Origin: Phycisphaerales bacterium | GTDB lineage: Bacteria > Planctomycetota > Phycisphaerae > Phycisphaerales > UBA5793 | NCBI GenBank assembly: GCA_020852515.1 | Contig: JADZAS010000015.1 | Span: 186,001-250,000, forward strand | Direction of reading: 5' to 3' | DNA length: 64,000 nucleotides | Part shown: piece after piece, positions 4,716 to 37,133 of the stretch | Numbering within the stretch: the first letter of the stretch is position 1 | Layout of the letters: the number at the start of each line of letters is the position of its first letter | Program-made: the position numbers and the translations under genes | Notes under the pieces: generated by a model | What the model saw: only the letters and a program-made list of their open reading frames with translations | Database searches by the model: none | Told to the model about the DNA's origin: nothing

Positions 4716-5645
4716 TTACTGTACCCTGGCGGCGGCGATGTTGGAGACCCCGCCCTGCTGTGCCGCCTGAATCCACACGCCGCGCCCGGCCGCGCCCGGC
4801 GGAATGCGGCGGGCAAAAGACGCGTGGCCGTTGCTGTCTGCCACCGCGTCGCCGGCGCTGGTCGGATTGCGCAGGCCGAGCGTGACGCCCAGTTGGTTCA
4901 CGCGCTGCTCGCCCAGACCGGACAGGCTGTAGATGAAATGGACCCGCTGGCCGGGCGTCGCGCCGGTCACATCGAATGTCGTCGTCTGGCCCGCGGTGAG
5001 GCTGTCGTAAGCCAGCGTCATCACCGGCGCATCGCCCAGCGCCGTCTCCACGTTGAGTTGGAGGCGCCGCGAGGGGTCCGCGGCATACTCGCGGCTGTGG
5101 AAGTAGCCCAGGCGCGAAGCACCGGCGCTTTCGAAGGTGTTCTTGTACATCCAGCCCTGGTGCGACTGGCTCGTGATCTCATCCTGCACGAGAGCGGTCA
5201 CGTCCCAGTCGATCCAGCCGGTGTAGAAACTGTCGCCCGTCTGGGCCGTGGCCCAGACCTGGCTGGCAAAAGCCGGCTGGTTGGCCCAGGTGACGGTGCT
5301 CTCATCCCAGGTGGAGGTGACCTTGTGGACGTTTGTGTCGAGCCCGCCCGCGGCCGGCTCGGTATCGAACTGGTACGCGCTCAGCACAGCGCCGGTAATC
5401 GCGTTCGAGTTGCCCGGCAGCAGGTCGAGCAGGTCGAAGCGCACAAAGGTGCGGATGTTGCCCAAGCCCCAGAATGAGCCGCGGCCGATCCAGATCACGT
5501 CTGATGAGCCGTTGTTCTCGTTTGGCGCAACGTCGCGGGTGTGGGCGTCGGCGGTCGGATAGAGCGTAACGACGCTCTGGGTGCGGGCTGCGGCGGTGAA
5601 TGCGTTGGCGGCAAGCAGACAGGTCAAGGCGGTCGTGGGGCGCAT
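4716..5645 (-). CDS. Secreted DNRLRE-type protein with a C-terminal secreted module
   Basis: 309 residues with a signal peptide (MRPTTALTCLLAANAFTAAA). The N-terminal ~190 residues resemble the DNRLRE/CBM96-type jelly-roll: DAHTRDVAPNENNGSSD, FVRFDLLDLLPGN, STWDESTVTWANQP and WDVTALVQ are the usual signatures. The last ~95 residues form a second module (TFDVTGATPGQRV ... TLGL ... ADSNGHASF) that looks like the secreted protein at 47129-47518. The start was moved inward to the ATG with GGAGGAGAG in front; a longer open frame upstream is Arg-rich and not signal-like. A role in binding polysaccharide or the cell surface is plausible but unproven. Confidence 0.82.
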   Translation of the reverse strand: MRPTTALTCLLAANAFTAAARTQSVVTLYPTADAHTRDVAPNENNGSSDVIWIGRGSFWGLGNIRTFVRFDLLDLLPGNSNAITGAVLSAYQFDTEPAAGGLDTNVHKVTSTWDESTVTWANQPAFASQVWATAQTGDSFYTGWIDWDVTALVQDEITSQSHQGWMYKNTFESAGASRLGYFHSREYAADPSRRLQLNVETALGDAPVMTLAYDSLTAGQTTTFDVTGATPGQRVHFIYSLSGLGEQRVNQLGVTLGLRNPTSAGDAVADSNGHASFARRIPPGAAGRGVWIQAAQQGGVSNIAAARVQ

Positions 5646-5811
5646 GGGTTCTCTCCTCCGGTGGTCGGTTCGTGGTTTGGAATCGTTCTGAGGATACAGG
5701 AAATCGAAGGGGAACGCAAGGGTCGGAAGAGGCGGGTGCCGCTGTCGGGTCGGAATACCGTCTTTGGGGCGCTGTCCTATTCGTGCGGACACGCCGCGCT
5801 GGAGAGATGAG

Positions 5812-6051
5812 ATGTGCAAGGCGAACCCATCCCGCCAAAGTGATCGCCGCCGGCGGCTCAGCGCATTTCTCTCCAGCCACTGGGCCGAATGCTGCCTCGC
5901 GGTGGCCATGCTGGCGGCGATGGCGGTCTCGGGTTGCGATTCGTTCTACATGTGGACCGGCCCCGACGGGCAGACCCGCTACACATCCGATCCGCCCGAG
6001 TCGTACCCGGTTGAAGAGCGCGCAAGGGAGCACCCTGCGTTCTGGCGTTAA
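5812..6051 (+). CDS. Small lipoprotein, DUF4124-like
   Basis: 79 residues. A basic N-terminus and hydrophobic segment lead to the lipobox AVSGC (Cys about 41), so the mature protein is a lipoprotein of fewer than 40 residues. The mature part, FYMWTGPDGQTRYTSDPPES, resembles the short DUF4124 motif (aromatic-x-W-x-D-x-x-G-x-x-x-Y-S-D-x-P). The ATG at 5812 has GGAGAGATGAG upstream; a longer in-frame start at 5764 lacks support. It is divergent from the DNRLRE gene. Confidence 0.65.
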   Translation: MCKANPSRQSDRRRRLSAFLSSHWAECCLAVAMLAAMAVSGCDSFYMWTGPDGQTRYTSDPPESYPVEERAREHPAFWR

Positions 6052-6156
6052 GCCCGATAACCGGTAACGCCATTCACTCAGTTCGGGTGCATAGTCCGGT
6101 CGCGGCTGCGTTAGACCCGCCGCGGGACTGGGAACGGGAAAACTCCTTCCAGCTGC

Positions 6157-6187
6157 TTGCAATGGCCGGCCGAACGTGTTCTAATAC
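6157..6187 (+). promoter_or_regulatory. Candidate sigma70-type promoter for the DUF6159-like gene
   Basis: TTGCAA (6157-6162) lies 17 bases from TCTAAT (6180-6185); the overlapping TAATAC (6182-6187) is an alternative -10. A transcript starting near 6193 would carry the AAGGAG site before the ATG at 6226. Assigned by resemblance only. Confidence 0.4.
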
Positions 6188-6225
6188 CCGCGATCGGGAT
6201 CCGCCCCCTCACCAAGGAGCCTGCG

Positions 6226-7098
6226 ATGTTCTCATCCATCGGCCGCAGTTGGGAGTTCGCGAAGATGAGCTACGGCATCATCTGGGACTTCAAGCAACTG
6301 ATCGTCTTTCCGATCATCTCGACCTTTGCCGCCCTGGCGGTGCTCGCGTCCTTCCTCATCCCGCTCTGGGGCACGGGCACACTGGAGCAGTGGATGGAGT
6401 TCATGGACCGCGAAAGCGGCGCCCAGGGTGGTCCGCCGGTGCTGTTCTACGTCGTCGCTTTCGCGTTCTATTTCGCCAACTACTTCGTGATCATCTTCTT
6501 CAACGCCGGGCTGACGGCGTGCGCGTTCCGCGTGCTCGAAGGGAAAGCGCCCACGGTGGGCTACGGGATGTCGATGGCCGGCAAGCGCCTGCCGCAGATC
6601 CTCGGCTGGTCGCTCGTCTCGGCGGTGATCGGCGTGCTGCTCAAGGTGGTCGAGAATGCCAATGAGAAAGCAGGCCAGTGGATCGCCGCCCTGCTCGGTT
6701 CGGCGTGGACGGCGATGACCTACTTCGTGGTGCCCGTAATCGTGCTCGACGGCGCCGGCCCTTACGCGGCGTTCAGCAAGTCGATGTCCACCCTCAAGAG
6801 CACGTGGGGCACGGCGCTCGTGGGCAACTTCTCGCTTGGCCTGCTTTCCTTCCTCGTCATGCTGCCGGTCATGCTGATCTGCGGCGTGCTCGGGTTTCTC
6901 GCCTGGCAGTCAGGCAGCACGGCCCTGTTCGTGCTGGTCGTCGTGGTCGGCGTGGCGATCGTGGTCATGACCACGGCATTCACGAGCGCGGCGGACGTCG
7001 TGTTCAAAGCCATTCTGTACAACTGGGCAACCGGCAAGACGGCGCCGGCGGGCGTGGACACCGTGTATCTGCAGGAGGCATTCCGCTCGAAGAGCTGA
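6226..7098 (+). CDS. DUF6159-like integral membrane protein
   Basis: 290 residues with about six hydrophobic segments. The N-terminus (SIGRSWEFAKMSYGIIWDFK followed by QLIVFPIIS) matches the start typical of the DUF6159 family: a short amphipathic stretch, a lysine-containing turn, then membrane helices in two bundles. The family's function is unknown. The end of the protein (AILYNWATGKTAPAGVD) is also family-like. The ATG at 6226 has AAGGAG nine bases upstream. It appears to be monocistronic, with its own promoter candidate. Confidence 0.75.
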   Translation: MFSSIGRSWEFAKMSYGIIWDFKQLIVFPIISTFAALAVLASFLIPLWGTGTLEQWMEFMDRESGAQGGPPVLFYVVAFAFYFANYFVIIFFNAGLTACAFRVLEGKAPTVGYGMSMAGKRLPQILGWSLVSAVIGVLLKVVENANEKAGQWIAALLGSAWTAMTYFVVPVIVLDGAGPYAAFSKSMSTLKSTWGTALVGNFSLGLLSFLVMLPVMLICGVLGFLAWQSGSTALFVLVVVVGVAIVVMTTAFTSAADVVFKAILYNWATGKTAPAGVDTVYLQEAFRSKS

Positions 7099-7245
7099 CA
7101 ACGCGAACCGCGGCGGCGGCCCGGATCAGCGGCGGCTATGATTCATTCCGGAACTCGCCAGGGATTCGGGCGTCCAACAACCTGTTCTGGCCGCGTGGTT
7201 TGTCGCGTGGCGCCCGGTCCGATTCTGCTCTGAAGGGAAGGCCCC

Positions 7246-7956
7246 ATGCTCCAGTCTGCTCGCTTCTCAATCGCCGCGTTGTGCCTGGCCGCCCCCATGG
7301 GCCTGCTCACCGTCACGCTGGCCGGCTGTGGCGACTCGGGCGGCGAAAGCGCCGCGGTCGAAGAGGCCCGCTACGTCGTGCCCAGCGATGAGCCCGGCAC
7401 GCCCATGTCCGATACCGGTTTCATCCGCGTGGACGACCGCATCGCCGGCGGCCGGCTTATTTCGACCACCGCAAGCAAGCTGAATCTCACGGACGAAAAG
7501 CCTCGCCGCATCATCGACGGGCGGCAGGTCTTCACCAAGGCCCAGTACACGGCGTTCGTCAACTCGCCGGTGCTCCGCCTCGAAAAGATCTTCAGCCCGG
7601 CAGACGCCGTCGTCGTGATGGTGGACGTGGGGAGCGAGTCGCCGTTCCCGCTCAAGTCCGTTTCGAGCGCCGATCGCGACAAGTTCATTCCCGCGCCGGT
7701 GCTGCACGATGACATCGGCAACACCTACTGGCCGGTCGGGTATTTCTACAAAGACCTCGACAACGAGACGCTGGAGATCAACATCGACCTGTCGAGGCAG
7801 TTCAAGGACCTCAACCGCATTCCGCCGCTCAGCCGCTCCAAGCGACAGGAACTCACGCTCGTGTATCAGGTCAATCTCGGCGTGAACCTGACGGCGATCA
7901 GTTACGGCGGGCACGAGAAGCGGACGTTCAACATCGCCACGTCCGACCGGTTCTGA
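7246..7956 (+). CDS. Lipoprotein of unknown function
   Basis: 236 residues. Signal peptide with lipobox LAGC (Cys about 28), followed by a Gly/Ser/Glu linker typical of an exported lipoprotein. The body is a mixed beta-rich domain with no motif I recognise (for example RLEKIFSPADAVVVMVDVGS and TLVYQVNLGVNLTAISYGGH). The start has AAGGGAAGG upstream. It converges on dapB with 7 bases between stops. Envelope location is supported; function is not. Confidence 0.75.
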   Translation: MLQSARFSIAALCLAAPMGLLTVTLAGCGDSGGESAAVEEARYVVPSDEPGTPMSDTGFIRVDDRIAGGRLISTTASKLNLTDEKPRRIIDGRQVFTKAQYTAFVNSPVLRLEKIFSPADAVVVMVDVGSESPFPLKSVSSADRDKFIPAPVLHDDIGNTYWPVGYFYKDLDNETLEINIDLSRQFKDLNRIPPLSRSKRQELTLVYQVNLGVNLTAISYGGHEKRTFNIATSDRF

Positions 7957-24523: not shown

Positions 24524-24552
24524 TTGATTGTCTGGAATCTGTTCGGTATCCT
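24524..24552 (+). promoter_or_regulatory. Candidate promoter for recQ, predicting a leaderless mRNA
   Basis: TTGATT (24524-24529), 17-base spacer, TATCCT (24547-24552), then only gtcgc before the ATG at 24558. The expected start point coincides with the start codon, and no ribosome-binding site is present. Confidence 0.5.
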
Positions 24553-24557
24553 GTCGC

Positions 24558-26804
24558 ATGGCCACCACCTCCACTCAGCCGCCGTCGGCTGCCCGCAGGG
24601 ACGCGAGCAGTGTGCCCACCTCGCAGATCCTCAAGACCGTGGAGCGCGTCTGGGGCTATCGCGAACTTCGCCCCCTGCAGGAGCAGGCCATCCGGGCCGG
24701 GCTCGAGCAGCGCGACTCGCTGCTGGTCATGCCCACCGGCGGGGGCAAGAGCCTGTGCTACCAGGTGCCGCCGCTGATCAATCGGCGCACCGACGTGGTC
24801 GTCTCGCCGCTCATCTCGCTCATGAAAGACCAGGTCGATGCGCTCAAGGCCAACGGCTACCCAGCCGCGGCACTGAACAGCACCATGTCCGTCGAGGAGC
24901 GCAAGGCGGTCGGCCGGGCCGTCAAGCGCGGCGAGTTGCGCCTGCTCTTTGTCGCGCCCGAGCGGCTGATGAACGATGGCTTTCTCAAGTTCCTCCAGGA
25001 CGTGGGCGTGCGCGGCTTTGCCATCGACGAAGCGCACTGCATCAGCCAGTGGGGACACGACTTCCGGCCCGAGTACCGCCGCCTGGCCGAGTTGCGCTCG
25101 AAGTTCCCCGGCGCCAGTTTCCACGCCTGCACGGCCACGGCCACGCAGCGCGTGCGCGCGGACATCATCGAGCAGTTGCGCCTGCGCGAGCCCAACGTAC
25201 TGGTGGGCAACTTCGACCGGCCGAACCTGGTCTATCGCATCGTGCCGCGCGTCGATGCCAATGCGCAGTCGCTCGAAGTCATCCGCCGGCATGAGAACGA
25301 AGCGGTGATCATCTACTGCATCAGCCGCAAGGACACGGAGAACCTCGCGGGCTATCTCAAGGCGATGAAGATCGACGCTGCGGCGTATCACGCAGGCATG
25401 TCGGGCGAGGACCGCCGCAAGGTGCAGGAGGCCTTCGCGCAGGATCGCCTGCAGGTCGTCGTCGCCACCGTGGCCTTCGGCATGGGGATCGACCGCAGCA
25501 ACGTGCGCTGTGTGATCCACACCGCGATGCCCAAGTCGATTGAGCACTACCAGCAGGAGACGGGTCGCGCCGGGCGCGACGGACTTGAGGCCGAATGCGT
25601 GATGTTCTATTCGCTCGCCGACATGATGCGCTGGGAGCGGCTCATCGCCCAGTCGGCCGAGCAGGCGACCCAGCCGCAGCCCGTGATCGAGGCGGCGGGC
25701 GAACTGCTCGGGCAGATCCAGCGCTTTGCAGCGGGCTCCACCTGCCGCCACCGGGCCCTGGTCGAGTACTTCGGCCAGGCGTATGAGAACAGCGACTGCG
25801 GCGCCTGCGATGTCTGCCTCAACGAACTCGACACGCTTCCGGACGCCACCGTGGTCGCGCAGAAGATCATCTCGTGCGTGGCGCGCGTCGGCGAGCGCTT
25901 CGGCGTGGGCCACGTCGTCGACGTGCTGCTGGGCAGCCGGAGCGATCTGATCAAGCGATGCAAGCACGACGAACTGAGCGTGCACGGGCTGCTCAAGGGC
26001 GGCGACAAGAAGCAACTCGTCAGTCTCACCCACCAGTTGATCGACCAGGGCCTGCTCAGCCGCACCACGGGCCAGCGGCCGGTCGTGACGCTGAGCGAAA
26101 AGAGCAAGCCGGTGCTGCGCGGCGAAGTTCCCGTCGTGCTCGTCAAGCCGGCGGCAAAGTCAAGCGCCGCGCGGGGCGGAAAGTTCGACAGCGAGTCGTG
26201 GGAGGGAGTGGATCGCGATCTCTTCGAGGCGCTGCGCCAGTTGCGCGCTGCAATCGCCGCCGAGCGCGATGTGCCGGCGTACGTCATCTTTGGCGACGGG
26301 ACACTGCGCGACCTGGCGCGCAAGCGGCCGGGATCCGTGGAGACGATGCGCGGCGCCTGGGGCGTGGGTGAACTCAAGTGCAAGGACCTCGGGCCTCGCT
26401 TCGTCGATGTGATCGCCGCGCATTGCAGGGCGAACGATCTGGAGATGGATGTCGGCGTCGATGCGGCGCGCGGTGGGGGATCAAATGCCTCGGGCGGCAA
26501 GGGGCTCACGGCCGGCGCGCTCGCGTCGTTTGACCTCTTTCGCGAAGGCAAGACCATCGAGCAGGTCATGGAGACGATGGGCCGGGCGCGGAGCACGGTC
26601 ACGAGTTACCTCGCGCAGTTCATCGAAGTCGAGGAGCCCGAGTCCATCGACGCGTGGGTCGAGCCCGAGGCGCAGCGTGAAATCGCCGAGGCGATGAAGC
26701 GAGCCGGCGCCGACTACCTGCGCCCGATCTTCGACGAACTGCAGGGCAAGTACGAGTATGACACGATCAAACTCGTGCGGGCGTTCATAGGCACCAAGTC
26801 GTAG
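24558..26804 (+). CDS. recQ: ATP-dependent DNA helicase RecQ
   Basis: 748 residues. The 3'-5' DNA helicase core has Walker A MPTGGGKS (58-65), DEAHC (about 156) and the aromatic-rich loop ISQWGHDFRPEYRRL. A RecQ zinc site follows (cysteines in the region from CRHRA, about 395, to DCGACDVC, about 418), then a winged-helix RQC domain, an HRDC domain (about 552-625), and a C-terminal helix-turn-helix segment (about 658-740, DLFREGKTIEQVMETMGRA) as in long RecQ forms. It acts in recombination and replication-fork repair. The start is ATG behind a near-consensus promoter with no leader. Confidence 0.96.
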   Translation: MATTSTQPPSAARRDASSVPTSQILKTVERVWGYRELRPLQEQAIRAGLEQRDSLLVMPTGGGKSLCYQVPPLINRRTDVVVSPLISLMKDQVDALKANGYPAAALNSTMSVEERKAVGRAVKRGELRLLFVAPERLMNDGFLKFLQDVGVRGFAIDEAHCISQWGHDFRPEYRRLAELRSKFPGASFHACTATATQRVRADIIEQLRLREPNVLVGNFDRPNLVYRIVPRVDANAQSLEVIRRHENEAVIIYCISRKDTENLAGYLKAMKIDAAAYHAGMSGEDRRKVQEAFAQDRLQVVVATVAFGMGIDRSNVRCVIHTAMPKSIEHYQQETGRAGRDGLEAECVMFYSLADMMRWERLIAQSAEQATQPQPVIEAAGELLGQIQRFAAGSTCRHRALVEYFGQAYENSDCGACDVCLNELDTLPDATVVAQKIISCVARVGERFGVGHVVDVLLGSRSDLIKRCKHDELSVHGLLKGGDKKQLVSLTHQLIDQGLLSRTTGQRPVVTLSEKSKPVLRGEVPVVLVKPAAKSSAARGGKFDSESWEGVDRDLFEALRQLRAAIAAERDVPAYVIFGDGTLRDLARKRPGSVETMRGAWGVGELKCKDLGPRFVDVIAAHCRANDLEMDVGVDAARGGGSNASGGKGLTAGALASFDLFREGKTIEQVMETMGRARSTVTSYLAQFIEVEEPESIDAWVEPEAQREIAEAMKRAGADYLRPIFDELQGKYEYDTIKLVRAFIGTKS

Positions 26805-26919: not shown

Positions 26920-29900
26920 TCATGGAGACTTCGCTTTCGGCCGCGCAAACTCGCGCGGCGTCTCATCCGGCGCCGGCTCGTCGCTCACCTTGAACACCTC
27001 GCCGTCGCGCAGGTACATCTGCTGCATCTCTTCGAGGTTCAGCGGCCGCGCGCCCAGGCGGCCGAAGACCGCTACCTGGTTGCCCGATTCGTCCACGGCC
27101 CGATCGCGATCGAGCCCTTTGCTCACGGCCAGCGCGGGGCCATGGGTGTGATACGTTGCGATGAGGCTCGGATTGAGTGGCGGCGAGAACCCGCGGAATT
27201 GCGGCGTGCTGTGCGGCCCCATGAGTTCGATCACACGCAGGCCGTTGCGCCCGTCGGCGACGTAGGCAAAGAGCGACGCGTTGGTCATGCCGACCTTCAC
27301 ATCGCGCGCGTCGTCGATCGCGCCGGCAGCAGAGAAGATCTGGTCCAGTCGAGGCTGCTCGGGATTGGTTACGTCGATAATCGCCAGCCCCTGCGAGCCG
27401 GCGGCGACAAAGGCATAGGTGCGCGCCACATACACCCGGTGCGCCTCGGCCAGTTCGACGAAGCCGCCCTCCACCACGCGCGGCGCCAGGGGATCGGTGA
27501 TGTCCAATGCGTGCAGACCGCGGGCGTCCGTCACGAACGCGTAGCGGAACTGCACCGCAACCGACTGCGGACTCTCAAAGACATCGCTGCCCACCACGGC
27601 GACGACGCGCGGGCTCAGCGGCTGGTCGATGTCGATCACCACGAGTCCTGCCGGCGCGGTGGCATACACATAATGCCCGGCGAGCGCGAGATGCGTCATG
27701 CCGGTGAGCACGCCATCGGGGTTGAAGGCCGTCGCGCCGTCGGCGAGCGTGGCGCGCTGCATGAAGTTGTTCGTCGGGTCGCCGTCGAGCAGCGTGCCGG
27801 CGAACGTGAGAATCAGGCCCTCATCGCGATCGCCGATGTACAGGTAGGCGTAGAGCGGATGAATGGGCTGCTCCTGATTGACGAGGTGCGTGTCTTCGGG
27901 GGCTCGCTCGTCGAGCATGGTCTTGCGCGGCTTCTCAGGATCGTTCGACAGTCTTGATCGCGCCGGATCGACGCCCAGCGTCGTCGGGCTGGCGATGGCC
28001 ACGGCGTAACTCGTGTCGAAGCCGAGATTCTGGCCGAGCGGCGACACGGGCGCTGTGACGATGCGTTCGCTGAAGCCCTTGTTGTCAATGTTGGCCACGT
28101 CATAGGCGTAGAACCCGCCGGCGCCGCGCGCTGTGTAGAGGTACTCGCCGCGCAATTGCACGTCGAGAATCTCGCCACCCCACGGCGCGCCGTGATGGTG
28201 CGCCTCGCGCAGCGCTCGACCACCGTCCACGAACTGCCGGTGCTCATCCGGATACGCAAGATGATGCAGATGCGAGCCGTACACCGCCTGCGGCTCGTCG
28301 TGCTCCGTCACGGCGACGGCCTCAAGGCCGTCGCCGCCGGTCGCGACGTAGGCGTAGCGGCCGATGAAGTTGACGAAGTTCGTGCCCTGCAGCAGCAGCT
28401 GCGCCATCCACGCGTTGTTGTCATTGTCCTGCGACACGTGGCAGTCGGTGCACATTTTCGTCGTGCCCCGGCCCGACGTGGCGTGCGGGAAGTGCGGGTT
28501 GAATGCCTGTCCGCTGAAACCTTCAGCGCTGATCGTCTGTTGCTGGTGGTAGATCCACTCGCGGTTGGCGTTCTGGCTCGAGACGATGACGGCGCTGCTC
28601 GAGCGCACCGGCACGACGCGCCCACCCTTGACGCTCGAGTCGCGCCCGAGCATGAAGATGTCATCGCGCAACACCTGGTAGTTGTATCTCGTGTAGTTGC
28701 GCGTGAAGAGGTTCTCGTTATGCAGCATCGGCGCCCGCTGGTTGGCTTCCATGGGCAGGTGGCAGCCGAAGCACGAGGTCATCCACGAGGTGTGGCAGGT
28801 GTAGCACTCCATGTTGTCGGGCGAGTGGGCGAACTCGAGGTTGCGCCCCTCTTCGACGGTGAGATCGCCCCACGAGCCGTCGCGGCGCATGGTCTTGGCG
28901 CGGCGGCTCCGCGCCGCCGCTTCGGGGTTTTCCTTTGCCCAGGCCGAGTCCGGATCGATCGTGTCTTTCGTGAGCGGGATCGTCCACGAGAGGTTCCGAT
29001 CCGTGGCGGACTGCTGCACGTAGATGCGCCCTCGCTTGCGGATGCGCGGCTGGCCGAAGATCCTTTCCCTGCTGAGATCTCTGCCGCCATCCACAGCCGC
29101 CGGCCCGCTGGTGCGCAGCGTGGGCTCGTCGGTGTACGTGCCGTGGCAGTCGATGCAGGTGATTTCGATGGCGTTGCGCACTTCGCCGTAGAGCCGCCCG
29201 TCGCCGTGCACATCCTGCTCGAAATGGCAGTCGATGCAGTGCATGCCGGCCTTGAGGTGCACATCGCCCAGGCGCACCGCCTTGTCCCACTTGTCCGGGT
29301 CGTTGAAGTCCACGACATGGTCGTTCTCGTCGAGCAGATGGCCCTGGCGATCTTTCTTGTAGACAGCGCGGAAGACCCAGCCGTGGCCGTGGAAGTCGGC
29401 GATCTGGTTGTGCTGCAGACGGTCGTTGAGCGTCGAACCATCGCCCTTGCGCGGCTCGCCGCTGCGCTCGAGGAAATCGTCGCCGCTCAACTCACCCGCG
29501 TGCGAAACTGCATTGGGATACAAGTTCGCCCACAAGCCATTGAGCGCAGCGCTCTCCGGGTTTCGCCGCAGCGCTGCAATCTCCTGCTCCGGCGTCGGCG
29601 CGTGCGAACGATTCGGATAGAAGAACTCGCCGTCTGACTCGTTGTCCCACCACATGTAGCCGAGGTAGGTGTTGGCGTAACTCGTGCCGGGGTGCACGTG
29701 GCAGGTGATGCACTGGCTGCTGGGGATCGCGCGGCTCAGAACGTGCGATACCGGATGGCCGGACTCGTCCGTGGGGATATTCGGATCACTTTGCGCTGCG
29801 GCCAGGCCCATGTTGCCATGCGCCGCGAGCATCGCGCCCGAGTGCATCGGATCGCGGTCGTTGGCGTAGAGCACGTGGCACGTCGTGCATCCGGATGAGC

Positions 29901-31140
29901 GGTAGTCGCCGGGGTGGTCGTTGGTGCCGAGGAAATTGAGCGTCGGATCGAGCAGTCGCGTCTTCTGCAGGCCGATGAACACGGGATCGGTCCGGTTCGC
30001 CGTGCCCAGGCCGCGCGGCGAGAGACCCTTGTCGGGCCGGCCGCCTTCGACGAGCGGGTTCGGATTGCCGATCTCGGCGGGGCTGGCGTTGGGCGTGGCG
30101 CCGCCGGGGGCGGGCAGTTTCGTGCCGCGTTCGAAGATGCGCAGAATGTTGCCGGGCTGGCTGATGTTCCACACGGGCAGTGGGCTGAGATAAGGCGCCA
30201 CGCCGCGCGCCGCTTCCTCCTCGCTCACCGGCCGCGTGCGCACCTGGTCATCTTCGATCTCAATCACACCCTGGAGGCGCTGCGGCAGGCCGAAGGCGGA
30301 GTAGCTCTCGCCGTAATTGGGCGTTTTGTTGGGAATCGAGCCGTTGTTGTAGAGCGCCGCGCCCCAGAGTTGCGCGCCGTGCGCCATCATGGACCGCTTG
30401 ACCTTCTCGACGATTTCGAAGTGGCACGAACCGCAGGAGTACTCGGCGACGCGCAGATCGCCGGGGTTGATGAAGCGAATGAACTCGGGCGATTCCTGGT
30501 TGAGCAGCGCGCCGGTGATTTCGGGGTTGCGCGAGCCGTGCAACATGGCGGGATCGCTCTCGCCATGATGCGAGCCGAATTCGGCATCATCGTGCCGGCC
30601 GTACCATGCCTGTGCGTTGCGCGGCTGCACGTGGGCGCGCTGCATGGCGTCGAGGTAGGCGGGGTCGGTGATGGGTGTGCCCGGTTCACCCGGCCGGCCG
30701 GGCGAATCAAGAGGAGAGGTGACGGACGGATCGCCGCCGTGGCAGCCGGAGCACCCGACCGGCATCGGCGAGCGTGTATTACCATGCATGGTGCGCGACG
30801 CCTTGTCGTACTCACCGTGGCAGGTCATGCAGCCGCCGGATTGCTCAAGGCTCCAGTCTTCGGCGCTGTAGGGGCCGCTGCCATCGGGTCTTGGCGGGGC
30901 GTCCTCAGGCGTGCGCTGCATGCGGCCGTCGAGTTCGCTCTGCGCCTCGGCCGGATCGGCCATGCGCGCGATGAAGGCGCGGTCGTACGGCTCGCCGCCG
31001 CGCCAGTGTTTCGCATGTTCGCACGCGGCCAGAACGAGGACAAATCCGCCGAGCGCTGCAATGCACGGCGCCAGCAAGGTGAACGTCTTGCGTGTGCTTC
31101 TTGTGCGTCTTCGCGGCAGGTTGCTTTCGCGGTGTTCCAT
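26920..31140 (-). CDS. Decaheme c-type cytochrome with C-terminal LVIVD-type beta-propeller
   Basis: 1406 residues. The hydrophobic N-terminal segment ends in LAAC (Cys about 40), so it is probably a lipoprotein. Ten CxxCH heme sites follow at about residues 104, 130, 236, 418, 477, 635, 662, 779, 790 and 897 (CMTCH, CSGCH, CGSCH, CTTCH, CITCH, CIDCH twice, CYTCH, CFGCH, CTDCH). From about 925 to 1330 there are repeated strands of the LVIVD kind (GLVVIDIDQPLSPR, GLHALDITDPLAPR, GLAIIDVTNPEQPR), forming a propeller. Each c-heme can carry electrons, so this is an extracytoplasmic electron carrier; no catalytic site is recognisable. It follows the porin gene by 10 bases. The start at 31140 has GGGTGGGCG upstream. 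The usual electron donor or acceptor is unknown. Confidence 0.9.
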   Translation of the reverse strand: MEHRESNLPRRRTRSTRKTFTLLAPCIAALGGFVLVLAACEHAKHWRGGEPYDRAFIARMADPAEAQSELDGRMQRTPEDAPPRPDGSGPYSAEDWSLEQSGGCMTCHGEYDKASRTMHGNTRSPMPVGCSGCHGGDPSVTSPLDSPGRPGEPGTPITDPAYLDAMQRAHVQPRNAQAWYGRHDDAEFGSHHGESDPAMLHGSRNPEITGALLNQESPEFIRFINPGDLRVAEYSCGSCHFEIVEKVKRSMMAHGAQLWGAALYNNGSIPNKTPNYGESYSAFGLPQRLQGVIEIEDDQVRTRPVSEEEAARGVAPYLSPLPVWNISQPGNILRIFERGTKLPAPGGATPNASPAEIGNPNPLVEGGRPDKGLSPRGLGTANRTDPVFIGLQKTRLLDPTLNFLGTNDHPGDYRSSGCTTCHVLYANDRDPMHSGAMLAAHGNMGLAAAQSDPNIPTDESGHPVSHVLSRAIPSSQCITCHVHPGTSYANTYLGYMWWDNESDGEFFYPNRSHAPTPEQEIAALRRNPESAALNGLWANLYPNAVSHAGELSGDDFLERSGEPRKGDGSTLNDRLQHNQIADFHGHGWVFRAVYKKDRQGHLLDENDHVVDFNDPDKWDKAVRLGDVHLKAGMHCIDCHFEQDVHGDGRLYGEVRNAIEITCIDCHGTYTDEPTLRTSGPAAVDGGRDLSRERIFGQPRIRKRGRIYVQQSATDRNLSWTIPLTKDTIDPDSAWAKENPEAAARSRRAKTMRRDGSWGDLTVEEGRNLEFAHSPDNMECYTCHTSWMTSCFGCHLPMEANQRAPMLHNENLFTRNYTRYNYQVLRDDIFMLGRDSSVKGGRVVPVRSSSAVIVSSQNANREWIYHQQQTISAEGFSGQAFNPHFPHATSGRGTTKMCTDCHVSQDNDNNAWMAQLLLQGTNFVNFIGRYAYVATGGDGLEAVAVTEHDEPQAVYGSHLHHLAYPDEHRQFVDGGRALREAHHHGAPWGGEILDVQLRGEYLYTARGAGGFYAYDVANIDNKGFSERIVTAPVSPLGQNLGFDTSYAVAIASPTTLGVDPARSRLSNDPEKPRKTMLDERAPEDTHLVNQEQPIHPLYAYLYIGDRDEGLILTFAGTLLDGDPTNNFMQRATLADGATAFNPDGVLTGMTHLALAGHYVYATAPAGLVVIDIDQPLSPRVVAVVGSDVFESPQSVAVQFRYAFVTDARGLHALDITDPLAPRVVEGGFVELAEAHRVYVARTYAFVAAGSQGLAIIDVTNPEQPRLDQIFSAAGAIDDARDVKVGMTNASLFAYVADGRNGLRVIELMGPHSTPQFRGFSPPLNPSLIATYHTHGPALAVSKGLDRDRAVDESGNQVAVFGRLGARPLNLEEMQQMYLRDGEVFKVSDEPAPDETPREFARPKAKSP

Positions 31141-31150
31141 CGCCCACCCG

Positions 31151-33091
31151 TCAGAATGCAAGCGTCACTCCGGCGAAGACCTGCCAGAGCGTGTCGTCGC
31201 TTTCGTAGATGTCGGTGAATCCGTCGCCGGGGAAAAAGAGCGAGCCGCCCAGCGTGAGGATGATGTTGTTGTTCAGCGCCGGGCGGTACTGCGCGCTCAG
31301 GTTGAGTTCCTCGCCGATGTGCGAGCCGATGCCGTTCTGGTTGAGCACAAGTTCGAGCGTGTCGGTGCTGGCGAACCACAGGCTGTTGGCGTTCAGGCTC
31401 GCGCGGAGCTTGGGCGTGATCTCGGCATCCACGCCGGCGTTGATGAGCGCGATGCCGGGGTTGACGAAGTTCGACTGCCCCTCGACCTTCGTTCCGGCCA
31501 GGTCGTTGTAGAAGCTCCGCGCGCTGGTAAGGTCCACACCAAACAGTCGCAGCGCCTGGCTCTGGTAGAAACTCCCCGGCCCGCCGGCAAAGAACGGGTT
31601 GTCGAAGATTCCGTCGAAACCTTCGCCGCGGCCATCGGTCGGATCGCCATCGCCGCTTGCGTAGAGCAGGGAGACCTTCGGCCGCAGCCAGTCCATGTCA
31701 TACGAGAGTTCGATGGCGCCCAGGAACGCGCTGATATCGACATCGCGCCCGGCGATCGGGTTGCGCCGGTCCTGGCCGAGCACGTAGTAGAGCGCGTGAT
31801 TGACGTTGATCCGGCCGATGTGCCCATCGCTCGCCCAGCCCAGGTAGTACGCGTCAATGTCCTGGCTGGTGACGCTGCCGATCAGGCTCGGTCGCACGAG
31901 GAATCCGTTCTCGTCGTAGCGCAGGTCCGAGCGGTCGTGGTTCCAGTGCAGACTGAACTGCGTTGTATACCCCTTCCAGATGAAATCCTGGATGTAGAGG
32001 TTGGCGATGAACACCTGCTGATCGCGCCACTCGAGTTTGTTGAGTTGGCTGTTGGTGTCCTTCTCGGCTTGGTTGAAGAGCGCGAGGTTGTACTGGATGC
32101 GGTTGGATTCGAGGTTGCCCAGCAGCCGCACGCCGTCGGAATTGTCGTTGAAGACAAAGCCGCGGAAGTCGGAATTGAACTGCTGCCGGCCGATGCGAAG
32201 GGCCGCGATGTCGAACTGCGGGCTCGTGTCGCCCAGGTGGAGTTCGCCGAACGCCTCCTGCAGTGCGACAAAGTGATCATCGCGCACCTCGCCGCGCCTC
32301 GTGTCGATGAACGCGGCGTTGTGTTCCTGGAGTTCCAGGTGATTCAGATTGATGACCGGCGTGATGCGCACGAGCCAGTCCACGGGGCGAAACGCGGTGT
32401 ACCCCTGGAAGACTTCGAGACTCAAGATGAAGTTCTGATTGACGAAGAACTGCTCGCCGTCGCCGAAGAAGTCGAACGAACCGGGATTGCCGGCGCTGGC
32501 GCCCGAGGGCGTGGGTAGTTTGCGGGCGGTGATGAACGTATCGGAGATCGCCGACACGTTGAGGAAGATGTCATCGCCGATGATCGGATAGTCGCCCTTG
32601 AGGATGTTGCGGTCGTACGGGTTGAGCCCGTGGCCGCGCGTGTAGGGCGAGTCGCCTCCCGACCAGTTCATGAGCAGATCGTCGGTCGCGGCCTGCCGGC
32701 CGTAGCGGTCCCAAGGCAACCAGCCGATGCGCCAGCGGTCGGGGACGGGCACGGCCGGTTCGCGGAGCATCCACTCGGCGATATCGGATTCGCCGGCGTG
32801 GCCGAGCGGCTCAAGGGGCACCGCGGGCAGCAGTTCTTCCTCCGCCCGCTGGATTTCGGTTTCTGCCGGCGCAGGTTCCTGCGGTTGGGATTGCGGCTCA
32901 GCGGTGGGCTGTTCAGGGGGATCCTGGTCGGCCCCCGCGCCCGCCGTCACCGAGGCTGGCGCCACAGCGCACAACGCGGCTGCAGCCGCGCACCTGGCGC
33001 ACCACAGCCCGCTTCCACCACGCTCGAAGTCCCATGCCACGCAATGCAAGATATCCGAGGCAACCGCCTCCAGCAACCCCGCAGGACGCAC
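31151..33091 (-). CDS. Outer-membrane beta-barrel porin (alginate-export/porin-cytochrome type)
   Basis: 646 residues. A signal-like Ala-rich segment (CAAAAALCAVAPASVTAGA) is followed by a Pro/Glu/Gln-rich linker of about 50 residues and then a long barrel of alternating strands (FVNQNFILSLEVFQGYTAF, GYTTQFSLHWNHDRSDLRYD), ending in VFAGVTLAF with a C-terminal Phe, the outer-membrane sorting signal. It resembles the large barrels of the alginate-export family. Ten bases separate its stop from the decaheme cytochrome gene, so the two are one operon. GTG at 33091 is the first possible start; a GTG at 33040 is also possible and neither has a good ribosome site. Confidence 0.78.
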   Translation of the reverse strand: MRPAGLLEAVASDILHCVAWDFERGGSGLWCARCAAAAALCAVAPASVTAGAGADQDPPEQPTAEPQSQPQEPAPAETEIQRAEEELLPAVPLEPLGHAGESDIAEWMLREPAVPVPDRWRIGWLPWDRYGRQAATDDLLMNWSGGDSPYTRGHGLNPYDRNILKGDYPIIGDDIFLNVSAISDTFITARKLPTPSGASAGNPGSFDFFGDGEQFFVNQNFILSLEVFQGYTAFRPVDWLVRITPVINLNHLELQEHNAAFIDTRRGEVRDDHFVALQEAFGELHLGDTSPQFDIAALRIGRQQFNSDFRGFVFNDNSDGVRLLGNLESNRIQYNLALFNQAEKDTNSQLNKLEWRDQQVFIANLYIQDFIWKGYTTQFSLHWNHDRSDLRYDENGFLVRPSLIGSVTSQDIDAYYLGWASDGHIGRINVNHALYYVLGQDRRNPIAGRDVDISAFLGAIELSYDMDWLRPKVSLLYASGDGDPTDGRGEGFDGIFDNPFFAGGPGSFYQSQALRLFGVDLTSARSFYNDLAGTKVEGQSNFVNPGIALINAGVDAEITPKLRASLNANSLWFASTDTLELVLNQNGIGSHIGEELNLSAQYRPALNNNIILTLGGSLFFPGDGFTDIYESDDTLWQVFAGVTLAF

Positions 33092-33160: not shown

Positions 33161-33224
33161 GCCTTTCATCGGCAGTCTTTCGATCCGTGGGTGAGCCGGC
33201 AAAATGGCCGGGAGGATGGGTCCG

Positions 33225-36200
33225 ATGCGACAAACGTCAGGGCGAGCCCGTCGTCGATTCGTCCGCACTCCACAACCGAACCTCGGCGCGCTGCGACCGG
33301 TGTTCCAGCCGCTCGAGCGACGAGCGCTGCTCTCGGCCGCCGTGCTCGACGCGGGTCTGCGCCGCTTCGAGTTTGCCGACGCCAATGGTGATCTCGTGCA
33401 GGTGCGGCTCATGGGCCGCGGCTCGGCCGAGGTGACCCTCACCGGCGATGCCGCCGACCACGCCGACCTCGACGCCATCCGCATGACCGGCGTTGACGAG
33501 AGCACCTCGCTTCGCATCACCGTGCGGGTGGGCGAGGGCGGCGACGGCTCGACGACTCTGGCTTCGCTCCACTCCGACGGATCGCTCAATCGCCTCGATT
33601 TTCGGCGCGTGACGCTCGTCGGCGCGGGCATCCACCTCGCCGGCTCGATCCATCGACTCGACCTCACCGGCATCAGCGGCGATCCGAACCGTCCCGCCGG
33701 CGTGCGCGTCGGCGGCGATCTCGGCGCCGCGCGCGTGCTCGGAGACATCGTGGCCGCAGATGTGACCGTCGGCGGCCAGGCCGGCGCCATCATCGTTCGC
33801 GGTGGCAGCTTCGCCGGCTCATCCATCGATATTGCGCAGTCGCTGGATCGACTTGTAATCGTCGACCGAGCGGGCCTGAGCGGGCAGATGCTCGACTCGT
33901 CGCTGACCATCGGCTCGACACTGGGCCTGTGGCGGGCTCACGAAATCTCCGGCGTAGACGGCCGGATCGGAGCCGACCTGGCCCGCCTCGTCGTTCAGGG
34001 CAATCGCGGCGCGACATCCGGCAGCATCGATCGCACGCGCCTGGCAATCGGCGGCGAACTCGGCCACGTGCGCGTCGCCACCGATCTCCAGTCAGACTCG
34101 ATCATCGCGGCAGAGGCTGGGATCGGGATGATGAACATCCGCGGCTCCGTGCGCGACTCGATGCTCCTCGCGGGCACGCGCCTCGACGCCGATCTCTCTC
34201 TTGACGGGGCAACCTTCGCGGCGGCGCCGATTGACCACATCACCATCCGCGGCGACCTGCTCGATTCCATCCTCGCATCCGGCGGCGATCCGGGTGAGGA
34301 CCGCCTCTTTCGCGATCATGAGATCCTCGAAGGCGGCTCGATCAACCGCCTGACCATTGGCGGCTACGTCGCGGGTGTGCACAGCGACCACATCAACCCG
34401 GGCGTCTACGCCGCCAGCATCGATCAACTTCGCGTGCACGGCTACCGGCTGGAGGGCAAGCCCGATGATCTCCGCGCCGGCATCATCGGCTCGGCCGTCA
34501 TCGACCCATTGCCCGACGCCGCCACCGCGCTGACTGAAGAAGATGTTCGCATCATTCTCGAGCAGATGATCGCCCGCGCGACGCAACTCGGCGTCAACGC
34601 CACGCTGGCGGTCACCGATCGCGAAGGCAACATCCTCGCGACCGTGCGCATGACCGATCCGTCGCTCACCGCCGATCCGGGCACATCGACGATCAGCGGC
34701 GGAGGCAGCGGCGGGCTTGAGGGCGTGACCGTGGCGTCGTCGATCACCGCGGTGACCAAGGCGGGGACGGCGGCGTTTCTCTCGACCACCGGCAACGCGT
34801 TCACCACGCGCACCGCCGGGCAGATCATCCAGCCGCATTTCCCGCCAGGCGTGCAGTTTCAGGATTCCGGGCCGCTGTTTGGTGTGCAGTTCTCATCGCT
34901 GCCCACCAGCGACATCAATCGCCTGCCCCTGGGCCTCTCGGCCGATCCGGGTGGCGTACCGATCTATCGCGGCGGGCAACTGCTCGGCGGCGTCGGCGTC
35001 GAACTCGACGGGATGTACACCTTCGACCCCAGCCCCATCGGCGGCCGGGCCACGCTCGAGGAGCGCATCGCCGTCGCGGGGCAGATCGGTTTCAAGGTTC
35101 CCGGCGCCATCCGCGCCGACCGCATCTTCCTCGACGGCATCCGGCTCGACTTTGCCAACATCGCGCCTCCTTCTCTGGCCTCGCTGGGCGTGCTGCCCGA
35201 TCTTGATGCGCTCGAAACGGGCGGCCTGCTCGACGTGCTCGTCACGCCGACCACCAGCCCGGCCACGATGTTCACGCCGACCACGCTGGGCAGCGTCATC
35301 GGCGAGACGATCGACTCCTTCGCCACCGGGCGCATCGAGGCCATTGCGCTCGGCGAGGGTTCGACGGTCTACGCGGTGCGCACGGCGGCCGGCAGCGAGC
35401 GTGAACTGATCAGCATCGACGTGCCTTCCGGCGCTGTCACGCTCGTTGCCAACATCTCCGACGGCGGGGCGAACGAACTCGCGCCGGGACAGTATGTTAC
35501 GACCATGATCTTCGACGACGGCGGCACGTCCGGCGCCCCGGCCGACGACAGCGTGATCATCCTCAACGGCGCTACCGGCGATGCGCGGCGGATCGACCTG
35601 GCGACCACGGCCGTCGGCGCTCCCCAGGCGCTGGCCGTCGCCGAGGCGCTCATGCGCGATGCGGTGGTCTACGACGATGGCGGCAGCCGCGACATGGTCG
35701 GAATCTCGAAATCCACCGGCCAGATGTACCGCATCGACACGGCCGACTTCACTGACGCGGGCAATTACACCGAGCTGACGACCGCCCTCGACGGCCGCAT
35801 CCAGTCGTTCACCTTGTCCACGGCCGGCGGCGCGATGGAGGCGTACGCGGTGCGAGCGCTCGGCTCGGCGCGGCAACTCGTGCGCGTCGCGCTTGACGAC
35901 TCGGGCGTGATGCTCGTGGCGGACCTGGCCGCCTCGACCGGCGGCGCGATCCGCAACGGGCAATCGATCTCTGCGCTCATGTACGACGATCTGGGCACGC
36001 CCGACGCCGGCGACGATCTGCTGATCGCACACAACGCGACGACCGGGCGCCAACTGTCGCTGCTCGCCGCCGACGGCTCCCTGATCGGGCAGCAGCGCCT
36101 CCGCGATCGCGCCGCCGTGCTCGAACAGGGGCGCCTGCTCAGCACGGGCGGCGAAGACTATATGCTCGGCGTCAGTTCGCGCAGCGAACAGGTGTTCGCG

Positions 36201-37133
36201 AATATCTTCGAAGATGTCACGGTGCTGACCAACCTGCTCCAACTCACCCAGCCGGACAATTCCATGCTCACTCTCGACGGCGTCATGGTGGGCGGCGAGC
36301 AACTGACAGGCGCCGATGTCGAGACGATCCTGCAGCAGGGCATCGAGTTCAGCCAGACGCTGCGCGCGGCGATCCGGCGCGACCGGCCGCAGATCGCCCA
36401 GGTCACCGTCAGCGTCGTCGACGTAGATGGCAACCTCCTCGGTTCGTTCCGTTCGGCCGATGCGCCGGTGTTCGGGTTTGACGTGTCGGTGCAGAAGGCC
36501 CGCACGGCGGCGATGTTCAGCCGCGACGACGCCGGGGCGCTGCTCAGCGCGGCCGAAGGCGGCGCGTTCGCCACGTTCGTGGACAACGCCGCGACCCTGG
36601 GCGTCATGCTCGACGGCAGCGTGGCCATGTCAGACCGCACCGGTGGATTCCTTTCGCGGCCGTTCCTGCCCGATGGCCTTCCCGGCACGATGCCCGGCCC
36701 GTTCAGCGCCCAAAGCCCCGACGAGTTCAGCATCTTTAACACCGGCCTGCAGGTCGAACTGCTCACCACCAACCTCGTCGCCTTCCTCGCCGACTTCGAT
36801 GCCTACGGCGACGAAGGTCTCGCGCTGCAGGCTTTTGAGGATGGCGTCATCGGCGGCGGCGGCGTGACCGACATCTCGCTGCCGGCCCGCAACGGCGTGC
36901 AGATCTTCCCCGGTTCCGTGCCACTGTACAAGAACGGCGTGCTGGTCGGCGGTGTGGGAGTTTCCGGCGACGGGATCGAGCAGGACGACTTTGTCGCGTT
37001 CATGGCCGCCGCCGGGTATCAGGAATTTGGCCCTGATGTGCGCCGCGCCGACGAGGTGCTCATCCACACGAATAACGGCTCTTTTCGCCTGCCATACGTG
37101 AAATTCCCACGCCAGCCCACCGGTGGCTATTGA
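33225..37133 (+). CDS. Giant LEPR-XLL secreted protein with two GlcG/HbpS-like heme-binding domains
   Basis: 1302 residues. The N-terminus carries PLERRALLSA (29-38), the planctomycete LEPR-XLL signature, after a basic region. Residues ~60-430 are repetitive short strands of beta-helix type (GGDLGAARVLGDIVAADVTV). A first GlcG/HbpS-type domain (~434-631) shows the pattern: helix AALTEEDVRIILEQMI-like, ATLAVTDREGNILATVRM, an AFLST/TAGQ block, and GVPIYRGGQLLGGVGVELDG. A propeller-like middle (~700-1010) follows, then a second GlcG/HbpS domain (~1028-1302) with TVSVVDVDGNLLGSFR, RTAAMFSRD and GSVPLYKNGVLVGGVGVSGDG. The family binds heme or small molecules. ATG 33225 (GGGAGG nine bases upstream) is preferred to 33204. 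Confidence 0.82.
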   Translation: MRQTSGRARRRFVRTPQPNLGALRPVFQPLERRALLSAAVLDAGLRRFEFADANGDLVQVRLMGRGSAEVTLTGDAADHADLDAIRMTGVDESTSLRITVRVGEGGDGSTTLASLHSDGSLNRLDFRRVTLVGAGIHLAGSIHRLDLTGISGDPNRPAGVRVGGDLGAARVLGDIVAADVTVGGQAGAIIVRGGSFAGSSIDIAQSLDRLVIVDRAGLSGQMLDSSLTIGSTLGLWRAHEISGVDGRIGADLARLVVQGNRGATSGSIDRTRLAIGGELGHVRVATDLQSDSIIAAEAGIGMMNIRGSVRDSMLLAGTRLDADLSLDGATFAAAPIDHITIRGDLLDSILASGGDPGEDRLFRDHEILEGGSINRLTIGGYVAGVHSDHINPGVYAASIDQLRVHGYRLEGKPDDLRAGIIGSAVIDPLPDAATALTEEDVRIILEQMIARATQLGVNATLAVTDREGNILATVRMTDPSLTADPGTSTISGGGSGGLEGVTVASSITAVTKAGTAAFLSTTGNAFTTRTAGQIIQPHFPPGVQFQDSGPLFGVQFSSLPTSDINRLPLGLSADPGGVPIYRGGQLLGGVGVELDGMYTFDPSPIGGRATLEERIAVAGQIGFKVPGAIRADRIFLDGIRLDFANIAPPSLASLGVLPDLDALETGGLLDVLVTPTTSPATMFTPTTLGSVIGETIDSFATGRIEAIALGEGSTVYAVRTAAGSERELISIDVPSGAVTLVANISDGGANELAPGQYVTTMIFDDGGTSGAPADDSVIILNGATGDARRIDLATTAVGAPQALAVAEALMRDAVVYDDGGSRDMVGISKSTGQMYRIDTADFTDAGNYTELTTALDGRIQSFTLSTAGGAMEAYAVRALGSARQLVRVALDDSGVMLVADLAASTGGAIRNGQSISALMYDDLGTPDAGDDLLIAHNATTGRQLSLLAADGSLIGQQRLRDRAAVLEQGRLLSTGGEDYMLGVSSRSEQVFANIFEDVTVLTNLLQLTQPDNSMLTLDGVMVGGEQLTGADVETILQQGIEFSQTLRAAIRRDRPQIAQVTVSVVDVDGNLLGSFRSADAPVFGFDVSVQKARTAAMFSRDDAGALLSAAEGGAFATFVDNAATLGVMLDGSVAMSDRTGGFLSRPFLPDGLPGTMPGPFSAQSPDEFSIFNTGLQVELLTTNLVAFLADFDAYGDEGLALQAFEDGVIGGGGVTDISLPARNGVQIFPGSVPLYKNGVLVGGVGVSGDGIEQDDFVAFMAAAGYQEFGPDVRRADEVLIHTNNGSFRLPYVKFPRQPTGGY

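Follow-up and report, generated by a model that had tools for sequence, protein, structure and literature searches.

A 64,000-nucleotide stretch from a Phycisphaerales bacterium (GenBank assembly GCA_020852515.1, contig JADZAS010000015.1, positions 186,001 to 250,000; hereafter the window) encodes an outer-membrane porin and, directly after it, a decaheme c-type cytochrome lipoprotein that carries a β-propeller. This pair is read here as the outer-membrane half of a trans-envelope electron-transfer pathway resembling PCC4, a hypothetical porin-cytochrome cluster (He et al. 2017, PMC5566968), with a probability of about 0.6. Electron transfer is the likely role of the pair. Judged from the genes, a trans-envelope path is also likely, because the barrel and the multiheme lipoprotein form a conserved unit that is tied by neighbourhood and co-occurrence to inner-membrane and periplasmic carriers. 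The pair comprises the following features.

26920..31161, minus strand: decaheme c-type cytochrome lipoprotein with C-terminal LVIVD β-propeller; likely start ATG at 31140, TTG at 31161 possible
31021..31032, minus strand: lipobox LAAC (sequence motif), with Cys47 as residue 1 of the mature lipoprotein
28438..30831, minus strand: ten-heme region, CxxCH 111 to 904 (motifs and conserved non-motif His)
27103..28371, minus strand: LVIVD/YVTN-type β-propeller, residues ~931-1353 (PF08309, predicted structure)
31151..33091, minus strand: porin, an outer-membrane β-barrel gene (Alginate_exp/AlgE-like, 18 long strands predicted, C-terminal Phe)

Anatomy of the Cytochrome and the Barrel

The cytochrome is 1413 amino acids (aa) long from the TTG and 1406 aa from the ATG at 31140, which lies 10 bases past the porin stop. 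It contains exactly ten CxxCH motifs (residues 111, 137, 243, 425, 484, 642, 669, 786, 797 and 904), and no other frame in the 64 kb window has two or more. None of the ten motifs is lost in any of the 28 aligned relatives; a few have the form CX4CH. Among the histidines outside the motifs, nine are invariant in the 28 aligned sequences and a tenth, His 593, is present in 86 to 100 percent of them. These histidines are numerous enough for every one of the ten hemes to be bis-His ligated, as in an electron carrier. About two thirds of the aligned relatives have a lipobox-like motif.

The C-terminal part of the protein matches LVIVD (PF08309, E 1.5e-18), and both its repeats and its predicted structure are those of an LVIVD propeller. 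The structural model, which starts at residue 214 and leaves out the first two hemes, covers residues 214-1413 with a predicted local confidence (pLDDT) of 84.8 and a predicted template-modelling score (pTM) of 0.91. YVTN-type propellers were its closest fold matches and one 7-bladed propeller was included, in lists that were filled by matches to the propeller and not to the ten-heme part. A search by sequence among solved structures gave no convincing relative of the cytochrome.

The porin frame encodes 646 aa ending in VFAGVTLAF, with an uncertain start codon (GTG at 33091 or an internal start). It matches Alginate_exp (PF13372) with 28.9 bits, above the cut-off of 25.2, and its model (pLDDT 81.8) has 18 long strands, counted from DSSP elements, with disorder in the initial ~100 residues of the modelled part. 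AlgE entries were the best matches in the fold search (E about 1e-18), followed by OccD/OccK channels. The barrel is AlgE-like in strand number and Pfam match, a likeness of fold only. A scan of its frame found no CxxCH motif, and no sequence relative was found among solved structures. An earlier note, made from these letters alone, had described a C-terminal-Phe barrel gene 10 bases from a lipobox gene with ten CxxCH motifs and a fused propeller; the frame coordinates, motifs, Pfam matches and predicted structure bear this description out.

Conservation of the Gene Pair

The genome of the window has a single copy of the cytochrome gene. Of 392 planctomycete genomes sampled, 39 carry it, representing 31 of 266 genera. 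The carriers are the window genome, two more of its genus, a single further one in its order, and others scattered over the phylum. A collection of named genomes contains at least 585 relatives, and full-length ones are known from at least nine phyla: Planctomycetota, Acidobacteriota, Verrucomicrobiota, Nitrospirota, Rokuibacteriota, Binatota, Myxococcota, Ignavibacteriota and Pseudomonadota. In a FastTree tree, the cytochromes group mostly by phylum with some mixing, and that of the window stands with Phycisphaerales. Isolates carrying the gene include Parahaliea maris, Roseiconus nitratireducens, Rubripirellula obstinata, Aporhodopirellula aestuarii and Limnoglobus roseus; most isolates of this kind are aerobes.

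The earlier note had proposed looking for the same two-gene order in relatives, and it was found both in planctomycete loci and beyond. In a second set of 57 loci, those with room upstream, a porin homolog lies directly upstream on the same strand in 50, across eight named phyla (51 after inspection of L114, where frames overlap), and the adjacency is retained in every non-planctomycete phylum tested. The porin stop and the cytochrome start often overlap or nearly so, in planctomycete loci as in the second set. Because the ten heme motifs are kept in all 28 relatives and most loci have a porin homolog next to the cytochrome gene, the pairing is not due to chance.

Partner Genes of the Pair

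Clustering of neighbouring proteins revealed four further recurrent families beside the pair: an HbpS-like protein, a 4Fe-4S protein that binds cyclic nucleotide monophosphate (cNMP), a membrane protein of ~300 aa and a second ten-heme cytochrome, in some cases with an FHA domain. The Fe-S protein, the membrane protein and the second cytochrome share a locus in 21 of the 57 cases and in all seven pseudomonad loci, and contiguous six-gene clusters occur in Pseudomonadota, Nitrospirota, Verrucomicrobiota and others. The design is neither specific to planctomycetes nor a two-gene system.

In the genome of the window, the genes for the cNMP/4Fe-4S protein, the five-helix membrane protein, and a 4-heme and a 6-heme cytochrome follow each other on contig C25. 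The second cytochrome, a single ten-heme protein in relatives, is thus split here into 4 + 6 hemes. Partner features are listed below, the first two in locus L150 (G000:C25:14001-34000) and the third in the window.

L150:8345-10048: Fe-S partner, upstream of the membrane protein gene (PF13247, E 3.1e-5)
L150:10051-10920: membrane protein of 290 aa with five helices (judged by eye), two WX3HX13H and SGXXG
33204..37133, plus strand: HbpS/GlcG-like (PF03928) protein of 1309 aa, divergent from the porin, with a planctomycete-type N-terminal motif (QPLERRALLSA, LEPRxLL-like)

The Fe-S protein of L150 falls 1.7 bits under the Pfam cut-off for PF13247 and lies above that of other Fer4 models; its relatives in L094 and L127 exceed the PF13247 cut-off. 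This partner is encoded in 38 of 39 cytochrome-positive and 41 of 353 cytochrome-negative planctomycete genomes (Fisher p 1.7e-29, a value that treats genomes as independent, ignores phylogeny and so overstates the case). In some relatives it is fused to other modules: a Pyr_redox domain in L094 (1-2043), with similar N-termini in L134 and L127, and a 2Fe-2S/NuoG-like domain in L079 (6089-8428, minus strand). By their domain content, these fusions point to electrons at the level of NAD(P)H or ferredoxin. In the membrane protein family, the two WX3HX13H motifs and SGXXG are present in 18-19 of 19 sequences, the four invariant histidines forming two HX13H pairs with WX3 before each.

In three planctomycete loci (L044, L053 and L107), the frame that encodes the second ten-heme cytochrome has ~900 aa and so exceeds its counterparts in other phyla.

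Proposed Electron Pathway

In the proposed pathway, electrons would enter or leave at the cytoplasmic cNMP-binding 4Fe-4S protein, which carries the fused NAD(P)H/FAD or NuoG-like modules in relatives, and would be exchanged with the inner-membrane protein, putatively of diheme-b type. The latter would communicate with the periplasmic multiheme cytochromes (4 + 6 hemes here, 10 in relatives), and these with the decaheme lipoprotein anchored in the outer membrane at the AlgE-like barrel. The lipoprotein would finally exchange electrons with a redox partner that is extracellular or admitted by the barrel, and its propeller may serve as a docking or substrate-binding domain. We infer that barrel and cytochrome form a physical complex with a continuous heme chain, and that electrons cross the outer membrane.

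Electron exchange with the cell exterior is plausible. Oxygen respiration is probably available to the organism, since two heme-copper oxidases are encoded in its genome. These two genes and the aerobic isolates among the carriers are compatible with electrons being either taken up from extracellular redox partners or passed on to them where conditions are oxic to micro-oxic.

Comparison with PCC4

As described in the main text of He et al. (PMC5566968), PCC4 consists of a porin, 4-, 5- and 10-heme cytochromes and a membrane protein with five helices, SGXXG and two WX3HX13H, a signature also given for PCC3. In subgroup II, a gene for a pfam13247 Fe-S protein lies upstream of the membrane protein gene. 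A literature search turned up no experiments on PCC4.

In plan, the set described here matches that account closely. A porin gene adjoins a multiheme cytochrome gene, the ~300-aa membrane protein of the same genome has the five helices, SGXXG and both WX3HX13H motifs, and a PF13247 Fe-S gene stands upstream of it as in subgroup II. The heme counts are 4 and 6 (contig C25) and 10 (window), against 4, 5 and 10 in PCC4. The two differ in that the PCC4 authors place the decaheme protein in the periplasm, whereas the protein of the window has a lipobox, and in that the genes here lie on two contigs. In the main text on PCC4, no mention was found of a propeller on the decaheme protein or of HbpS-like, FHA and cNMP parts. 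The authors list Planctomycetes among the carriers, to which Acidobacteriota, Verrucomicrobiota, Nitrospirota, Binatota, Myxococcota and others can now be added. In their proposal, electrons flow from a donor outside the cell to the quinones; with the NAD(P)H modules fused in relatives, either direction would be conceivable.

The earlier note knew of no planctomycete conduit of this design. As far as the PCC4 description goes, that view has to be given up: the plan had already been proposed and includes Planctomycetes, and the propeller-bearing decaheme set looks like a variant of it.

Comparison with Other Porin-Cytochrome Systems

The pair resembles MtrCAB, MtoAB and PioAB in having an outer-membrane barrel beside a decaheme cytochrome. 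However, no match at E<=1 was obtained for the porin with TIGR03509 (MtrB/PioB family) or for the cytochrome with TIGR03508 (MtrA/DmsE family), and the ten hemes of the window cytochrome are spread over ~800 residues with a propeller fused to them. MtrB did not appear among the 50 best structural matches of the barrel, a list that does not prove its absence. With no TIGR03509 match and 18 predicted strands, membership of the porin in the MtrB/PioB family was rejected. For PioB and MtoB, modelled with 26 strands, entrapment of the decaheme partner has been proposed (PMC10654088). Because the barrel of the window is predicted to have 18, an MtrA-like insertion is unlikely, and the predicted barrel is probably too narrow for a decaheme inserted in the MtrAB manner. 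A thinner heme arm within the barrel, or contact at its surface, is possible. The earlier suggestion of an electron conduit holds in part: a conserved unit tied to inner-membrane and periplasmic carriers was found, but neither the pair as a conduit on its own nor an MtrAB-like geometry (18 strands, AlgE as best match) was borne out.

OmbB-OmaB-OmcB of Geobacter also combines a barrel with a multiheme lipoprotein cytochrome, but has separate periplasmic and surface cytochromes, whereas the window locus has one decaheme gene. The fused porin-cytochrome Cyc2, of about 17 strands (PMC10654088), carries its heme motif in the barrel itself, unlike the window porin. Porin-multiheme cytochrome clusters of Verrucomicrobia (PMC5615132), set beside the pair by their description, are likewise putative, non-Mtr and from the PVC superphylum. 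In the cytochrome island of Desulfovibrio ferrophilus, propeller proteins are separate and a porin is not listed. A literature search found nothing relevant that joins LVIVD with multiheme proteins, FHA with multiheme proteins and a porin, or alginate export with multiheme extracellular electron transfer.

Alternative Explanations

Several observations weigh against the PCC4-like reading. Six relatives in Planctomycetota have no porin directly upstream (L119, L120, L131, L132, L116 and L093), the genome of the window has the inner-membrane part on a separate contig, and the lipoprotein could face the periplasm instead. The barrel is predicted to be AlgE-like with 18 strands, against the 26 of the PioB/MtoB models. 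Finally, the likeness to PCC4 was drawn from gene plan and motifs, as the main text gives them. Of the six relatives, L116 and L093 have a porin-like frame at another place in the locus.

A tentative alternative is offered by ExtHIJKLMNOPQS of Geobacter, which likewise combines a porin (ExtI), multiheme cytochromes (ExtM among them), a cytochrome b and an Fe-S protein. By analogy, the AlgE-like barrel would be a selective channel for a soluble redox substrate (an oxyanion, an organic acid or a small shuttle), and a decaheme protein facing the periplasm would exchange electrons with it, with no wire across the outer membrane. The 18-strand barrel with its AlgE and OccD/OccK-like fold agrees with this. 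Loss of extI in Geobacter impairs the reduction of selenite and tellurite but not of Fe(III) citrate (PMC5877670), which keeps a channel under consideration. The window cytochrome also has weak but significant similarity to the ExtM model NF040943 (E 1.3e-23, 83 bits), in two partial stretches; the match is mostly a two-heme segment, and the propeller is a further difference. Membership in ExtM was rejected at the cut-off of 800 bits, and the recurrent neighbours included no recognisable rhodanese or ExtKL-like gene. Moreover, every heme seems to have a candidate distal ligand, leaving no obvious catalytic heme, and the lipobox in about two thirds of the relatives speaks against the channel.

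The PCC4-like pathway might also take a more specific form, which is rather unlikely: the 18-strand barrel and the single decaheme-propeller lipoprotein would make an electron bridge of new geometry, for example with a conserved N-terminal two-heme arm in the pore, serving a cyclic-nucleotide- and FHA-gated extracellular pathway of many aerobic bacteria.

Acquisition of iron or heme at the surface is improbable. The HbpS-like protein would bind or degrade heme, and the chain, acting like a ferric reductase, would reduce extracellular Fe(III) to be taken up by the cell. Homologs of the HbpS-like secreted protein do lie near the pair in 44 of the 57 loci, and the membrane partner has His pairs of ferric-reductase type and a weak match to Ferric_reduct (PF01794, E 0.005). 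However, the annotated part of the recurrent neighbour clusters contained no recognisable siderophore or TonB receptor gene, and the patchy occurrence in the phylum (39 of 392 genomes) is unlike a general iron-uptake trait. That the barrel exports a polymer as AlgE does and the neighbouring cytochrome is unrelated, as the Alginate_exp match and the AlgE top structural match might suggest, is very hard to reconcile with a pairing that is consistent across phyla.

If the PCC4-like pathway is correct, the coding for extracellular electron exchange would extend far beyond the model metal reducers to bacteria of soil, fresh water and the sea, including Acidobacteriota, Planctomycetota, Verrucomicrobiota, Nitrospirota, Halieaceae and others. 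The cluster supplies named genes with which the PCC4 hypothesis can be tested in isolates such as Parahaliea maris, Rubripirellula obstinata and Roseiconus nitratireducens. It also raises the structural question of whether, and how, hemes can pass an 18-strand barrel.

Other Genes at the Two Loci

In L150, a gene for a cytochrome c554-like multiheme protein (PF13435; 7001-8224, minus strand) is divergent to the partner operon, with an additional frame containing a cNMP domain beside it (about 5323-7482). In the window, an ordinary RecQ-type helicase gene (24528-26804, plus strand; DEAD, RQC, HRDC and HTH_40 domains) is convergent with the cytochrome gene.

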